Below the pieces are notes generated by a model. That model ran no database searches, was not told the origin of the DNA, and worked only from the letters and a program-made list of their open reading frames with translations. A stretch of DNA of 64,000 nucleotides from Ignavibacteria bacterium (GTDB taxonomy: Bacteria; Bacteroidota; Ignavibacteria; Kapaibacteriales; UBA4661). The stretch is from positions 1 through 64,000 of the forward strand of contig CANHDJ010000003.1 of NCBI GenBank assembly GCA_947459425.1. Reading direction: 5' to 3'. Shown here in pieces: positions 24,448 to 32,423 of this stretch (positions within the stretch are counted from its first letter, which is position 1; each line of letters starts with the position of its first letter). Both the position numbers and the translations under genes were made by a program.

Positions 24448-25953
24448 TTACTGGTCGGAGTATTTAATTTCCGTATTGGGAAGGAGTTTGATGAGAAGCC
24501 CAATATCGTTCTTCGAGACTTTTGTCTCCAAAATATCTAATTTTTTTAGACGCGACAAGCGCAGCATATCGGGAAGGCGCGTCAGTTCTTTGTTGCGGGC
24601 AAGATTGATCTCTTGCAAATCGGTCAACTCTGACAACGCACCCGGCAATGATGTTAGTTTATTGTCGGCAATCAGAAACTTTTGCAAACCAGCAAGTTTG
24701 CCCATATCATTGGGCAGCGAAGCGATTTGGTTGCGCGTCGCGTTGAGCATCTGTAAATTCACCACTTTGCCTAATTCTGGTGGCAGCGCCGTAAGGCGAT
24801 TGTTACTGATGTTCAGGCTTTGCAATTTGGTCAAATTTCCAATATCGCTGGGCAGCGATGTGATTTGGTTGCCATTCAGCGTAAGACGTTGTAAATTTAC
24901 AAGTTTGCCAATTTCCGGTGGCATTTTCGTTAATTGATTCCCATTCAAAGCCAATTTCTCCAAACGCCCCAAATTACCGAGCGTTGCCGGTACTTCGGTG
25001 AGTTTGCAACTGCCGAGTTCGAGTGTTTGCAGATTCACCAAATTCCCGATTTCATTCGGAAGTGCCGTCAATCCGTTGCTATTCAAATCTAATTGCATAA
25101 GGCTTGTCAACTTGCCAATATCGGTTGGCAATGCTGTAAGCGCATTTCCGACTAAACGAAGCACCTGCAACTGTGTTAAAGCACCGATTTCCGCCCCCAG
25201 AACCTCAATCTGATTTGTGCTGAGTTCGAGACGTTGCAATTTTACCAATTTCGCTATTTCTGGCGGCAGCGCTTTAATTTGGTTGCCTTCCAGTGCCAAT
25301 ACTTTTAAATTCACCCATGAACCAAGTTCCGCGCCCAGAATCGTAATGCGATTCCGACTGGCATCCACATATTCTAGTGCCACCGCTTGACCAAGTTCGG
25401 TAGGGAGGGACGAGAGTTGATTATTACTCACATCAAGATGCGTGAGTTTGACGAGTTTGCCCAATTCGATAGGAAGCGATGTGAGGGTATTACTTTGCAA
25501 ATTCAGCACTTGCAGCTCTGTCAATAGCCCCAAATCAGTTGGCAGTGCGGGTATTTGATTTTGTCCCAGATTCAAGGTTTGCAACGAAGTTAGTTTGGTA
25601 ACTTCGCGGGGAAATATTTCCAGCAAATTCGATTTAACGCTGAGAATTTGCAGTTTTGTCAGTTTATTGATAATCGGCGGGATAGTCTTGATGCGGTTTG
25701 CGTCCATAAGCAGAACGCGCAGATTAACCAATTTGTCAAGTTTGGTGGGAAATTCTTCCATCTGCAAACCGCTCAAGTCGAGTTTCTGAACTTTGTCGGC
25801 ATTTTTAATAGCATCGTCCAGCGAGGTAAAAGTCTGCAACGCATTGAGTTGTGCGGTGTCCAGAAGTTGCGCGTTTGCAGAATTGGGCAAAAACAGCCCG
25901 CCTGCCGTGAGCAGACACAAGCATATAAGCCACATTGCAGCAATTGTATTCAT
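24448..25953 (-). CDS. Secreted leucine-rich-repeat protein
   Basis: The track ORF starts at 26067; the ATG at 25953 begins a good signal peptide (MNTIAAMWLICLCLLTAGG..ANAQ), giving 501 aa. After about 45 residues the protein is almost entirely 23-residue LRRs of the bacterial/Shoc2-like type (LxxLxxLxLxxNxLxxLPxEIGKLxx), about 18 copies to near residue 480, with a short C-terminal cap. There is no T9SS sorting domain, lipobox or transmembrane anchor, so it is presumably periplasmic or released. LRR solenoids bind proteins or glycans, but the partner is not predictable. The repeats are near-regular and recent duplication is possible. Confidence 0.88.
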   Translation of the reverse strand: MNTIAAMWLICLCLLTAGGLFLPNSANAQLLDTAQLNALQTFTSLDDAIKNADKVQKLDLSGLQMEEFPTKLDKLVNLRVLLMDANRIKTIPPIINKLTKLQILSVKSNLLEIFPREVTKLTSLQTLNLGQNQIPALPTDLGLLTELQVLNLQSNTLTSLPIELGKLVKLTHLDVSNNQLSSLPTELGQAVALEYVDASRNRITILGAELGSWVNLKVLALEGNQIKALPPEIAKLVKLQRLELSTNQIEVLGAEIGALTQLQVLRLVGNALTALPTDIGKLTSLMQLDLNSNGLTALPNEIGNLVNLQTLELGSCKLTEVPATLGNLGRLEKLALNGNQLTKMPPEIGKLVNLQRLTLNGNQITSLPSDIGNLTKLQSLNISNNRLTALPPELGKVVNLQMLNATRNQIASLPNDMGKLAGLQKFLIADNKLTSLPGALSELTDLQEINLARNKELTRLPDMLRLSRLKKLDILETKVSKNDIGLLIKLLPNTEIKYSDQ

Positions 25954-26222
25954 GGTTTTTTGTTCAATCGTAGGACGATACCGCATACCAAGGACGCTTT
26001 GAAGAATAATCGGTAGTACATTTGCCCTGTTTTTGCCATTCTTAAGAGGTTGGAAAAATGGCAACACTGAAGCGCAAGCGTGTAAAATAGTAAATTACTG
26101 CAAATCCAGAAGCACAAATTTCAGTAACGAAAGCAGATGTTTCGGCATCAACAGCAAAATCATCTCATCGGCGGCGTAAAATCTTGCTTTGCAACGCCAA
26201 GAGCCGCTATGTTTTTTCATCG

Positions 26223-28011: not shown

Positions 28012-29373
28012 TTAGTCGTTATGTTCGGGCGAAGCCTCTGAGAAGCCGTATTCTCGAAGTTTTCTGTACAATGTTCGCTCGCTAATGCCGAGTGCGTCGG
28101 CAACTTGACGGCGATTGCCGTCGAAACGGTTCAGCGCAGCGCTGATAAGCCGCTTTTCCACCTCGTGCATTGTCAGTGGGGCGTGAGCATCCGAGTGCTT
28201 GTCATCATCGGCTGTGTCTCGCGTGAAGGCGTTTGGGGAATCCTGCTCAACGCGCTGCATTGTCGCACCATTTGGGGAGTTTTGCGCAGAATCTTTTGTG
28301 TCGTGATGGTGGGAAAAAACGGCATCTTTGAGGTCGGCAACCTCACCACGCAAAAGTGCCACTTCTCGTACCAAATCAACCAATGCCTTGTACATCAATT
28401 CACGTTCAATCTGCTCCGGCATTTTCCCCGAAACCCGCATGAGTGCTGATGAAGCGGGAAGCAAGTGCTGACGCTGCGCATCGGGCAAAAATGCCATGAT
28501 ACCGACGGGATCACTTTTGACGGTATCGGCAACAACGTTTGCGGGTGGCAAAGCGGGATATGGCAGAGGTATCGGCACGGTATCGGGCTGTTTCAAGGCT
28601 CGCGGTAAATACGGACGCAGGGATTCCAGCGTGATTTGATGCCCTTTGCCGAGTGTCGTGACCGTTTCGATTAAGTTGCGCAATTCTCGAATATTTCCCG
28701 CCCAAGGCAGATTCATCAAAAGACGGAGCGCCTCGTGCGATATTCCTTCGTAGTCCGCACCAATTTTACGAGCCGTTCGTTCAGCAAAATACTGAACAAG
28801 TTCAGGAATGTCCTCGGGGTGTTCGCGGAGCGGCGGAATCTCGATTTGTACCGTGTTGAGGCGATAAAATAAGTCTTGCCGGAACCGTCCTTCGGCAACT
28901 TCGTCCTCCAAACGCCGATTGGTAGCGGCAAGCACACGAACATCGGTGCGAATCACATCCGGCGACCCCAAGCGCGAAAATTCTCCCGTTTCCAGCACTC
29001 GCAGGAGTTTAACTTGCGTTCCAAGTGGCATTTCGCCGAGTTCATCCAAAAAAATCGTCCCTTTGTCTGCTGCTTCAAAAAAGCCCTTGCGCTGCTCGGT
29101 TGCGCCTGTATAAGCACCTTTTTCACTGCCAAAAAGCTCCGATTCCAAGAGTGTTTCGGGAATAGCGCCGCAATTCAGGCTCACCATGCGCTCTTTGCGG
29201 CGTTTGCTGAGGCTGTGAAGCGTCCGCGCAAACACTTCTTTGCCCGTGCCGGACTCGCCCGTAATTAGCACACATAGATCGGTCGGCGCAACCTGTTCGA
29301 CACGCGCAATCACTTCGCGCATCGGTTCCGAAGATCCGATAATTCCGATGGTATGATGGTTGGGAGTGTTCAC
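28012..29373 (-). CDS. Sigma-54-dependent transcriptional activator (no receiver domain)
   Basis: AAA+ enhancer-binding protein that remodels sigma-54 RNA polymerase. It is 453 aa and begins directly with the AAA+ domain: Walker A GESGTGKE (about 39-46), sigma-54 contact loop GAYTGA (a conservative variant of GAFTGA), Walker B TIFLDELGEMP, and Arg finger region GRFRQDLFYRLN. There is no N-terminal response-regulator, GAF or PAS domain, so activity must be controlled by the linker (about 245-400) or by level. The C-terminal Fis-type HTH reads GNRRQVADALGISERTLYRKL. It is co-oriented with a secreted 2H-like gene 24 bp upstream and rqcH 25 bp downstream. Confidence 0.94.
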   Translation of the reverse strand: MNTPNHHTIGIIGSSEPMREVIARVEQVAPTDLCVLITGESGTGKEVFARTLHSLSKRRKERMVSLNCGAIPETLLESELFGSEKGAYTGATEQRKGFFEAADKGTIFLDELGEMPLGTQVKLLRVLETGEFSRLGSPDVIRTDVRVLAATNRRLEDEVAEGRFRQDLFYRLNTVQIEIPPLREHPEDIPELVQYFAERTARKIGADYEGISHEALRLLMNLPWAGNIRELRNLIETVTTLGKGHQITLESLRPYLPRALKQPDTVPIPLPYPALPPANVVADTVKSDPVGIMAFLPDAQRQHLLPASSALMRVSGKMPEQIERELMYKALVDLVREVALLRGEVADLKDAVFSHHHDTKDSAQNSPNGATMQRVEQDSPNAFTRDTADDDKHSDAHAPLTMHEVEKRLISAALNRFDGNRRQVADALGISERTLYRKLREYGFSEASPEHND

Positions 29374-29397
29374 GGACGGAAGGAAAAAATAATAATT

Positions 29398-30057
29398 CTA
29401 GCGTTCAAGAGTCTCGCAGAAACAAGCATTGATGCCCTTGCGCACGCCATTGCCTTCTTCATGCAGGTCTTGTTTCGTAAAGCCGATAGTGATATGCGGA
29501 TAGAAATGAAGCGGGTCCCAGAGCGATGCTTCTCCGCCCTTGGCAACATAGCGGTCAAAAATCGCACGGCGAATATTCACAAGGTCTTCCGAGCGCACGA
29601 CGACAAAATACGATTGCTCCGGCTTTCCTTCAAGGCTGACTTGAGCGCGTCCGAGGCATAAGGGCGTAAAACGGGCGTTTTGAATAGCCATGTTCGTCGC
29701 AATTTCGTTGATTTCCTTCATCGTCAATACTTTTCCCAAGACTTGCGAAAATTCCGGTGGCGAAATTACGGTAATATGCGCCTCACCTCTATTTTTGAGC
29801 GTCAGATTTACCTGTTTTTCCAATGCCTTCCACAGCGCTTCGGCGGGTGCAAAAGGAAGATTCATGCTGAGGTAATTGTCAAATGCTCCAGTGCCTTCGT
29901 GTGCCAGAAACGGCGCGGGTGCGTGGATGGCACTGCTGAGTGTGAGCGATATTGCCGAAGGAAAACGTCCTTTTTCAGGCGTTTGTGCTGAGAGAATTAT
30001 CGGCGCAATGAAGCAAAAAAACGCTATACAAGCAATGGGGAATCGTGAAGTGAGCAT
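29398..30057 (-). CDS. Secreted 2H-phosphoesterase-like protein
   Basis: The track ORF (30165) is longer; the ATG at 30057 starts a signal peptide (MLTSRFPIACIAFFCFIAPIILSAQ), giving 219 aa. The mature protein carries two HxT motifs about 100 residues apart, AHITVISPPEF and YPHITIGFT. This is the arrangement that defines 2H phosphoesterases (2',3'-cyclic phosphodiesterase or RNA-ligase-like fold). Export makes it unusual, since known members process RNA or nucleotides in the cytoplasm. It is the first gene of a tight three-gene operon with the sigma-54 activator and rqcH, and divergent from dedA. Substrate is unknown; assignment rests on the twin motifs only. Confidence 0.7.
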   Translation of the reverse strand: MLTSRFPIACIAFFCFIAPIILSAQTPEKGRFPSAISLTLSSAIHAPAPFLAHEGTGAFDNYLSMNLPFAPAEALWKALEKQVNLTLKNRGEAHITVISPPEFSQVLGKVLTMKEINEIATNMAIQNARFTPLCLGRAQVSLEGKPEQSYFVVVRSEDLVNIRRAIFDRYVAKGGEASLWDPLHFYPHITIGFTKQDLHEEGNGVRKGINACFCETLER

Positions 30058-30176
30058 AATTATTTGTTCCTTGTTCCTTGAAATATGTTTCTTGAACGGA
30101 GGCGAATATACAGATTTTTTGCGATTTGGGCGCATACCAAGCGCGAGACTGCTCTCTGGAAACATCAGGATTCGCG

Positions 30177-30207
30177 TTGGTTAGTTGCTTGAAAGTGCGT
30201 ACATTTG
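30177..30207 (+). promoter_or_regulatory. Promoter of dedA/miaB (TTGG-N19-TACATTTG)
   Basis: TTGG at 30177-30180, 19-nt spacer, TACATTTG at 30200-30207: a consensus Bacteroidota promoter. The predicted start is near 30214, giving a leader of about 45 nt before the ATG at 30261. This supports that start over the track start at 30126, which lies upstream of the promoter. Confidence 0.65.
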
Positions 30208-30260
30208 CAGGATATTTTCATGGCTTTCGCTTCATTTTATCACTATTGACCGACGTTTTC

Positions 30261-30899
30261 ATGGAATCACTGCAATCGCTCATTGATATTTTTCTGCATC
30301 TCGACAAGCATCTTGGCGAAATTATTAGTCAATATGGAACAACGACATACGCAATTCTTTTCACAATCATTTTTGCCGAAACTGGGCTTATCATCGCGCC
30401 CTTTTTGCCGGGCGATTCGCTCCTTTTTGCTGCCGGAGCGCTTGCTGCCGCGACTGGCGTACTCGACCCGCTCACGCTTGTCTTGCTTCTCAGTGTGGCG
30501 GCGATTGCTGGCGACACTGTAAATTATTGGGTTGGCAAAACGTATGGTTTGAAGGTATTGCAAAAATTCCCTTTTATCAAAAAAGAGCACATCGAATACA
30601 CCGAAAAATTTTACGAAAAACACGGCGGAAAAACAATTATCCTCGCACGGTTTTTGCCGATTGTACGGACGTTTGCGCCATTTGTTGCCGGAATCGGAAC
30701 GATGAATTATTCGCGTTTTATCCTTTACAACATCGTCGGCGGCATCGCATGGGTGGCATCGTTTATTTATCTCGGGTATTTTTTTGGTAATCTTCCCGTC
30801 ATCAAACGGAATTTTTCACTGATTATTCTTGGTATTCTCATCGTGTCGGTATTGCCGGGCGTGATAGAGTTTGTGCGACATCGGTTGAAAAAAGCGTAA
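30261..30899 (+). CDS. DedA-family membrane protein
   Basis: Integral inner-membrane protein of the DedA/VTT (SNARE-associated) family, linked to flipping of lipid carriers such as undecaprenyl phosphate or phospholipids and to envelope homeostasis. The ATG at 30261 gives 212 aa. An N-terminal amphipathic segment is followed by the re-entrant-loop motif FAETGLIIAPFLPGDSLLF, with Glu and Asp conserved. The second motif is GGKTIILARFLPIVRTFAPF with the essential Arg residues. Two or three further TM helices lead to a basic C-terminus. miaB follows 63 bp downstream on the same strand, probably from the promoter at 30177. Confidence 0.92.
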   Translation: MESLQSLIDIFLHLDKHLGEIISQYGTTTYAILFTIIFAETGLIIAPFLPGDSLLFAAGALAAATGVLDPLTLVLLLSVAAIAGDTVNYWVGKTYGLKVLQKFPFIKKEHIEYTEKFYEKHGGKTIILARFLPIVRTFAPFVAGIGTMNYSRFILYNIVGGIAWVASFIYLGYFFGNLPVIKRNFSLIILGILIVSVLPGVIEFVRHRLKKA

Positions 30900-30962
30900 T
30901 GCCGTATGACGATTTGTGACGTGATTTCCCCTTTCCACTGTTTTTATCTATTTCTACGCACC

Positions 30963-32423
30963 ATGTTCGATTTACCTGTTCTCAACGCATCAGAAACCAG
31001 CTTGGAATCTGGACTGCTGTCCGCAACGCTCCATGATAATGTTCTGCAAAGCAGCACCAAGTCACATTCTTCGCCGAATGCTCGTAAACTCTACGTTGAA
31101 ACCTACGGTTGCCAGATGAACGTCAGCGATTCGGAAATTGTCAAAAGCGTGATGAATCAAAGCGGCTATGCTATGACGGACAAGCCCGACGATGCCGATG
31201 TGATTTTGCTCAATACCTGTGCTATACGAGAGAATGCCGAGCGAAAAATTCACGAGCGGCTCATGCACTTGAAATTTTACAAAAAGCGCCGTCGAAACCT
31301 TGTTGTCGGCGTTCTGGGCTGCATGGCAGAGCGGATGCGGGACGAACTCATGGAAACGAAGCAAATCGTTGATGTCGTCGTCGGACCGGACGAATATCGC
31401 AAACTACCGGAGATTGTTGCCCGCGCCGAAGCAGGTGAAAAGGGCATCGCCGTCAAACTTTCTCGCGTCGAAACCTACGATGATATTGAGCCACTTCGTA
31501 CCGAAGGGGTGAGTGCGTGGACTTCGATTATGCGGGGCTGCGACAAATTTTGTACGTTTTGCGTTGTGCCGTTCACACGTGGACGCGAGCGTTCACGCGG
31601 TTTACCGCTCATTGTTGCTGAAGCGCAGCAGTTGTGGGACGCGGGGTTTAAGGAAATCACTCTTTTGGGGCAAAACGTCAACAGCTACCGTGACGAAGCC
31701 ACCGATACGGACTTCGCCGACTTGCTCAAAGCCACAGCCCGCGCCGTTCCTCAGATGCGGATTCGTTACAGCACTTCGCACCCTTACGATATGAGCGATA
31801 AGTTGATTGCGACGATGGCGGAATACGACAATATTTGCAAGTATATTCATTTGCCCGTTCAGTCCGGCTCTGACCGCGTGTTGGAGGCAATGAACCGCCA
31901 TTACACCGTTGCGCATTACAAAGAGCGCCTTCGTACAATCCGCGATTTTATGCCGCATTGCGCTCTTTCGACGGATATTATTGTTGGCTTTCCAACGGAA
32001 ACTGCGGATGAACACCGCATGACGGCTGATTTGATGGCAGAAGTACGCTTCGATGGGGCGTTTATGTTTCTCTATTCGCCCAGAGAAGGCACCAAAGCGT
32101 GGAAAATGGAAGACGACGTGCCACACGACGAGAAAGTACGCCGTTTGAATGAAATTATCGCCCAGCAACAGGATATTTCCAACGAAATCAATCAACGCTC
32201 ACTCGGCACGACGGAGCGTGTTTTGGTCGAAGGTCCCAGCCGCCGCAACCCCGAAACGGCATGGTTCGGGCGTACCGATACGAATAAAATCGTAGTCTTC
32301 CCGCACGTGACCAATCAGGAAGCAAGTGTTGCTGCGGGCTACGTGATTGGCGACACAATAAACATCCGTATTACCAAGGCTTCGCCCGCCATGCTCACTG
32401 GTGTTGTGGAGACAATTTCTTGA
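30963..32423 (+). CDS. miaB: tRNA-2-methylthio-N6-dimethylallyladenosine synthase MiaB
   Basis: Radical-SAM methylthiotransferase that adds the ms2 group to i6A37 in tRNAs. The track start (30906) overlaps sequence just after dedA; the ATG at 30963 gives 486 aa with a non-conserved head of about 40 residues. The N-terminal UPF0004 domain holds the three auxiliary-cluster cysteines (YGCQMN, LNTCAIR, LGCMAER). The radical SAM CxxxCxxC is GCDKFCTFCVVP, followed by LLGQNVNSY and LPVQSGSDRVLEAMNR, with a C-terminal TRAM domain. The QNVNSY/RHYT pattern fits MiaB rather than RimO or MtaB. Confidence 0.96.
   Translation: MFDLPVLNASETSLESGLLSATLHDNVLQSSTKSHSSPNARKLYVETYGCQMNVSDSEIVKSVMNQSGYAMTDKPDDADVILLNTCAIRENAERKIHERLMHLKFYKKRRRNLVVGVLGCMAERMRDELMETKQIVDVVVGPDEYRKLPEIVARAEAGEKGIAVKLSRVETYDDIEPLRTEGVSAWTSIMRGCDKFCTFCVVPFTRGRERSRGLPLIVAEAQQLWDAGFKEITLLGQNVNSYRDEATDTDFADLLKATARAVPQMRIRYSTSHPYDMSDKLIATMAEYDNICKYIHLPVQSGSDRVLEAMNRHYTVAHYKERLRTIRDFMPHCALSTDIIVGFPTETADEHRMTADLMAEVRFDGAFMFLYSPREGTKAWKMEDDVPHDEKVRRLNEIIAQQQDISNEINQRSLGTTERVLVEGPSRRNPETAWFGRTDTNKIVVFPHVTNQEASVAAGYVIGDTINIRITKASPAMLTGVVETIS

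Follow-up and report, generated by a model that had tools for sequence, protein, structure and literature searches.

Most of what is understood about 2H phosphoesterases concerns RNA-end and nucleotide enzymes of the cytoplasm, the nucleus or viruses. The locus described here, from the draft genome (3.4 Mb, 87 % complete) of an Ignavibacteria bacterium, raises the question of whether such an enzyme can be exported and, if so, on what it would act. From the letters of the 64,000-nucleotide stretch analysed (the window), a sequence-only reading had pointed out two HxT motifs about 100 residues apart behind a signal peptide, and had suggested an exported 2H phosphoesterase that processes extracellular cyclic nucleotides or RNA fragments.

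Gene identification and family assignment

The coding sequence, including the stop codon, occupies positions 29398-30057 of the minus strand and was delimited by its open reading frame and translation, its match to PF22547 and comparison with relatives; it encodes a predicted exported 2H-SAK phosphoesterase of 219 amino acids. The ATG at 30057 opens the protein start MLTSRFPIACIAFFCFIAPIILSAQ, and the reading frame ends exactly at 29398. The 2H-SAK profile PF22547 matched the protein over its whole length (model positions 1-124 of 124) with 92.5 bits and an E value of 3e-26, against a curated cut-off of 27 bits, and the HxT pair is therefore far beyond chance. PF22547 also matched every distant bacterial relative tested. 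PF13563 (2_5_RNA_ligase2) scored barely above its cut-off (28.3 bits, E 2.1e-6), its single match covering both HxT motifs. On these profile matches, membership of the protein in the known 2H-SAK (Swiss Army Knife) family is solid; the earlier 2H assignment thus gains a subfamily, with backing from both Pfam profiles and from fold searches. Matches were absent from NCBIfam and PHROGs, and sequence searches of the PDB returned nothing for either the protein or the family profile.

The SAK family takes its name from RNA-repair proteins, whereas in the window protein the domain stands alone behind a signal peptide. An RNA-repair multidomain architecture or gene set was absent from the open reading frame, and none was noticed in the bacterial neighbourhoods read; association with RNA repair is usual for 2H-SAK by name and is not a strict requirement. 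LigT/ThpR and 2_5_RNA_ligase2 proteins (PF02834, PF13563) share the 2H fold and the catalytic HxT pair, but their known members are cytoplasmic, whereas the window protein carries a predicted signal and is unmatched by PF02834 (LigT_PEase). The LigT_PEase domain (LigT/ThpR) was also undetected in the eight genomes of the genus, with 11 of 14 control genomes positive.

Catalytic motifs and predicted structure

The HxT pair reported earlier holds up: the motifs are EAHITVISP (H94, T96) and YPHITIGF (H188, T190), with a spacing of 94 residues. The first catalytic motif (HITVISP, H94 to P100) lies at 29758-29778 and the second (HITIGF, H188 to F193) at 29479-29496, both on the minus strand. In an alignment of nine sequences, with identity to the window protein down to 28 %, H94-I-T96 and H188-I-T190 are invariant, as are the proline of the first motif and the glycine of the second. 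The 2H catalytic tetrad (both His, both Thr) is complete. LigT uses the His of its second motif to activate water and that of the first as proton donor, and binds the phosphate through Arg130 (PMC5283653); Acb1 uses the identical tetrad and is metal-independent (PMC9117128). LigT Arg130 stands five residues past the second His, where the window protein has Phe193, so that substrate handling must differ.

Alignment, together with profile comparison with a phage protein, brought out a further motif, DLHEEGNGVRK (residues 197-207; 29437-29469, minus strand). Its D and K are invariant across the bacterial set, and it is recognisable in the phage relative as DVH-GVRK. We propose that this motif may contact the substrate or its phosphate; D197 and K207 would be the best candidates for a contact replacing LigT Arg130.

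A model built with AlphaFold2 (nine sequences) reached a mean pLDDT of 81.7 (about 90 over most of the core) and a pTM of 0.79, and placed both HxT motifs on confidently predicted strands (93-98 and 188-193). When compared with the PDB by using Foldseek, the ten best matches of each model were all 2H enzymes; the best included Deinococcus CPDase, Acb1, AKAP18, a Thermus 2H protein, ASCC1, LigT and Usb1. TM-scores of these matches were low (0.25-0.38), and the best E value was about 3e-3, with none below 1e-3. Among viral models, the top match was annotated as Swiss Army Knife 2H. The comparison with known 2H enzymes thus supports the predicted fold class, through the identity of the best matches and the strand positions of the motifs; TM-scores of about 0.3 carry the class and not the fine geometry.

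Acb1, an anti-CBASS nuclease of phages that cuts cyclic oligonucleotides and works in the host cytoplasm, was among the best PDB matches of both models, which raises the alternative that the exported enzyme cleaves another diester: released cyclic di- or oligonucleotides, or cyclic phosphates left by phospholipases. Cyclic dinucleotides are also among the substrates of exported CpdB-like enzymes (PMC9958556), and in one relative (L028) the 2H gene adjoins a short adenylate/guanylate cyclase-like ORF. The 2H subfamilies are, however, indistinguishable by fold scores, the cyclase neighbour is one case only, and the sequence family is SAK rather than Acb1. Cleavage of another diester is accordingly considered rather unlikely.

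Predicted signal peptide and export

The predicted signal peptide covers approximately residues 1-24 (29986-30057, minus strand), as judged by a hydropathy test and by comparison with relatives and with other window proteins; the cleavage site is estimated. In it, a short basic n-region of net positive charge leads into a hydrophobic stretch, and an AxA-like site stands near residue 23. The best 11-residue segment has a hydropathy of 2.94, within the range of those proteins in the window that are plainly exported. Together with eight relatives, the window protein spans 2.1 to 3.1, like the window's outer-membrane and secreted proteins, in contrast to the non-exported comparators (0.65 for the phage relative, 0.93 for a PF13563 protein). 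The ninth bacterial relative, L003, is very nearly a copy of the window protein and stands outside the hydropathy set of eight. Hydropathy and inspection together gave an N-terminal hydrophobic signal in all ten bacterial members, the window protein and its nine relatives; examples are MQKIMILLLATLCVALSAKS (L023), MPNYRVLITLLLISFLACLPAAG (L015) and MKYFILLLCIGLLTTCAYGG (L025), the relatives' start codons being the analyst's choice. Besides the signal peptide, these nine relatives, from the same family and a second phylum, all have the two HxT motifs and a similar motif at the C-terminus.

An in-frame ATG lies upstream at 30165, and a start there would place the hydrophobic segment about 36 residues deeper; in the distant relatives the signal sits at their own start codons. 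Since the signal is retained through strong divergence (identity down to 28 %), a misassigned start or chance hydrophobicity is very unlikely. Export as a conserved trait of this bacterial 2H-SAK branch is thus well supported by sequence comparison, and the location first claimed from a single N-terminus extends, as a prediction, to the ten sequences.

The N-terminus could instead be an uncleaved membrane anchor or a lipoprotein signal, and the enzyme membrane-bound rather than free in the periplasm; signal cleavage is an estimate only, and a Cys occurs near the end of the hydrophobic stretch in three relatives (L007, L015, L025). The Cys contexts are no clear lipoboxes, however, and in the window protein a variable linker of polar residues comes after the AxA-type site, as it does in Sec substrates that are cleaved, which makes membrane attachment improbable.

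Distribution and relatives

Five of the eight genomes of the genus (the window genome among them) contain the gene, as does one further genome of the family; it was found in none of the others of the 391 class genomes. The relative with 95 % identity carries the label Ignavibacteria bacterium, another the label Candidatus Kapaibacterium. A PF22547 scan of 396 genomes of the phylum returned two genus members and one marginal match (L018). The latter was rejected as a 2H-SAK member, being, apart from its marginal PF22547 score, an ordinary PF13563 protein without a signal peptide. In its own genome, the exported 2H protein is the sole PF13563-type protein detected; a second match there (C9:65615, E 5e-4, 54 residues) lies outside the HxT pair and was judged unrelated.

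Outside the phylum, a relative with 50 % identity in the best segment was found in a Wallbacteria bin, on a short contig of low coverage whose binning is unsure; of the 40 genomes of this phylum, three others also have the gene. In a tree of 11 sequences, the six Kapabacteria sequences formed a group (support 80/93), and the remainder was unresolved. The gene is scattered in its occurrence and lies at several places in the chromosome, which suggests that it has been gained and lost. Plasmids and annotated phages gave zero matches.

A viral contig (L039:4848-5591) encodes a 2H-SAK protein that lacks a signal peptide and is longer at its C-terminus by about 100 residues. It carries both HxT motifs as in the bacterial set as well as the DxH..GVxK motif. 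A tRNA nucleotidyltransferase-like gene is found three genes away, which agrees with a function of the non-exported family members in RNA repair. Together with the origin of the SAK name and the patchy distribution, this neighbourhood could be taken to favour a role in defence or self-protection, in which the exported enzyme would heal RNA ends or neutralise the products of RNase toxins in microbial competition. Sealing, however, requires a ligase and ATP, which are unexpected outside the cytoplasm, and a ligase, kinase or toxin gene never adjoined the 2H gene in the loci read; a defensive role is considered very improbable.

Proposed function

Outside the cell, the known solution for handling cyclic phosphates and cyclic nucleotides is the metal-dependent CpdB type. 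The preferred explanation, to which we give about an even chance, is that the window protein is a Sec-exported, metal-independent 2H phosphoesterase of the SAK branch that opens the 2',3'-cyclic phosphates of nucleotides and short RNAs in the periplasm or outside the cell. It builds on the established family membership, conserved catalytic residues and branch-wide signal peptide; the catalysis, its ring-opening direction, the substrate and the actual location are the parts that we infer. After removal of the signal peptide, the mature enzyme would be active in the periplasm or outside the cell; H188 would activate water for attack on the 2',3'-cyclic phosphate, H94 would protonate the leaving ribose oxygen, and the two threonines would help to hold the phosphate, to give a 2'-phosphate. 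The most likely substrates would be 2',3'-cyclic mononucleotides and short RNA ends produced by metal-independent RNases, either released by lysed cells or present in the environment. The 2',3'-cyclic ends left by metal-independent toxins are opened to 2'-phosphates by 2H enzymes (PMC9503650).

CpdB provides a periplasmic precedent for the proposed reaction (PMC9958556), and the window protein would perform the equivalent of its ring-opening step in Escherichia coli by an unrelated fold. Compartment and reaction, both as proposed here, would be shared with CpdB (UshA-type enzymes), whereas the CpdB fold is metal-dependent and unrelated to 2H. The CpdB-type C-terminal domain (5_nucleotid_C, PF02872) was undetected in the eight genus genomes, with 10 of 14 control genomes positive, so that a CpdB-type job is perhaps vacant in this genus. 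Because 2H enzymes need neither metal nor ATP, they would be able to work outside the cytoplasm. RNase T2 was likewise undetected in the genus, and the cyclic phosphates therefore lack a candidate source there, which counts against the explanation; with only two of 14 controls positive, this result carries little weight. Further points against a cyclic phosphodiesterase role are the low PDB TM-scores, the replacement of LigT Arg130 by Phe193 and the lack of conserved neighbours. The role first suggested, on extracellular cyclic nucleotides or RNA fragments, is thus a proposal that would fit the chemistry of the family, and a conserved gene partner was found at none of the loci read.

A literature search found an exported 2H enzyme described nowhere, although an earlier mention in the core family literature is possible; conserved export in this branch looks like an undescribed form of a known family. 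With slightly less than even confidence, we see here a dedicated extracytoplasmic 2H branch of at least two phyla, which would process 2',3'-cyclic phosphates or cyclic nucleotide signals without metal or cofactor, as a CpdB analogue evolved from an RNA-repair fold. If this is true, an all-exported 2H branch would handle RNA ends that bear a cyclic phosphate, or cyclic nucleotide signals, outside the cell and independently of metal.

Genomic context

Across the loci read, no neighbour of the 2H gene is conserved. Within the genus its neighbours are, depending on the genome, a sigma-54 regulator together with DedA, the ATPase gene of an ABC transporter, or a polyprenyl synthetase, and its neighbours in the second phylum are unrelated to these. 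All eight genus genomes keep the DedA-MiaB order (window 28012-32423; L012), but the 2H gene adjoins it only in the window genome and in the relative of 95 % identity; the other six have DedA-MiaB without an adjoining 2H gene, one of them with a contig end 0.4 kb away. The sigma-54 regulator and the NFACT gene were considered as operon partners and rejected, since this gene order recurs only in the 95 % identical relative.

At L028:2280-6262 (genome G428), the exported 2H relative is flanked by an NB-ARC/STAND-TPR protein on one side and the short cyclase-like ORF on the other, a single arrangement that could be chance. Adjoining the NFACT gene, the window also encodes (24448-26067) a leucine-rich-repeat protein whose repeats form a long regular array and which probably carries a signal sequence.
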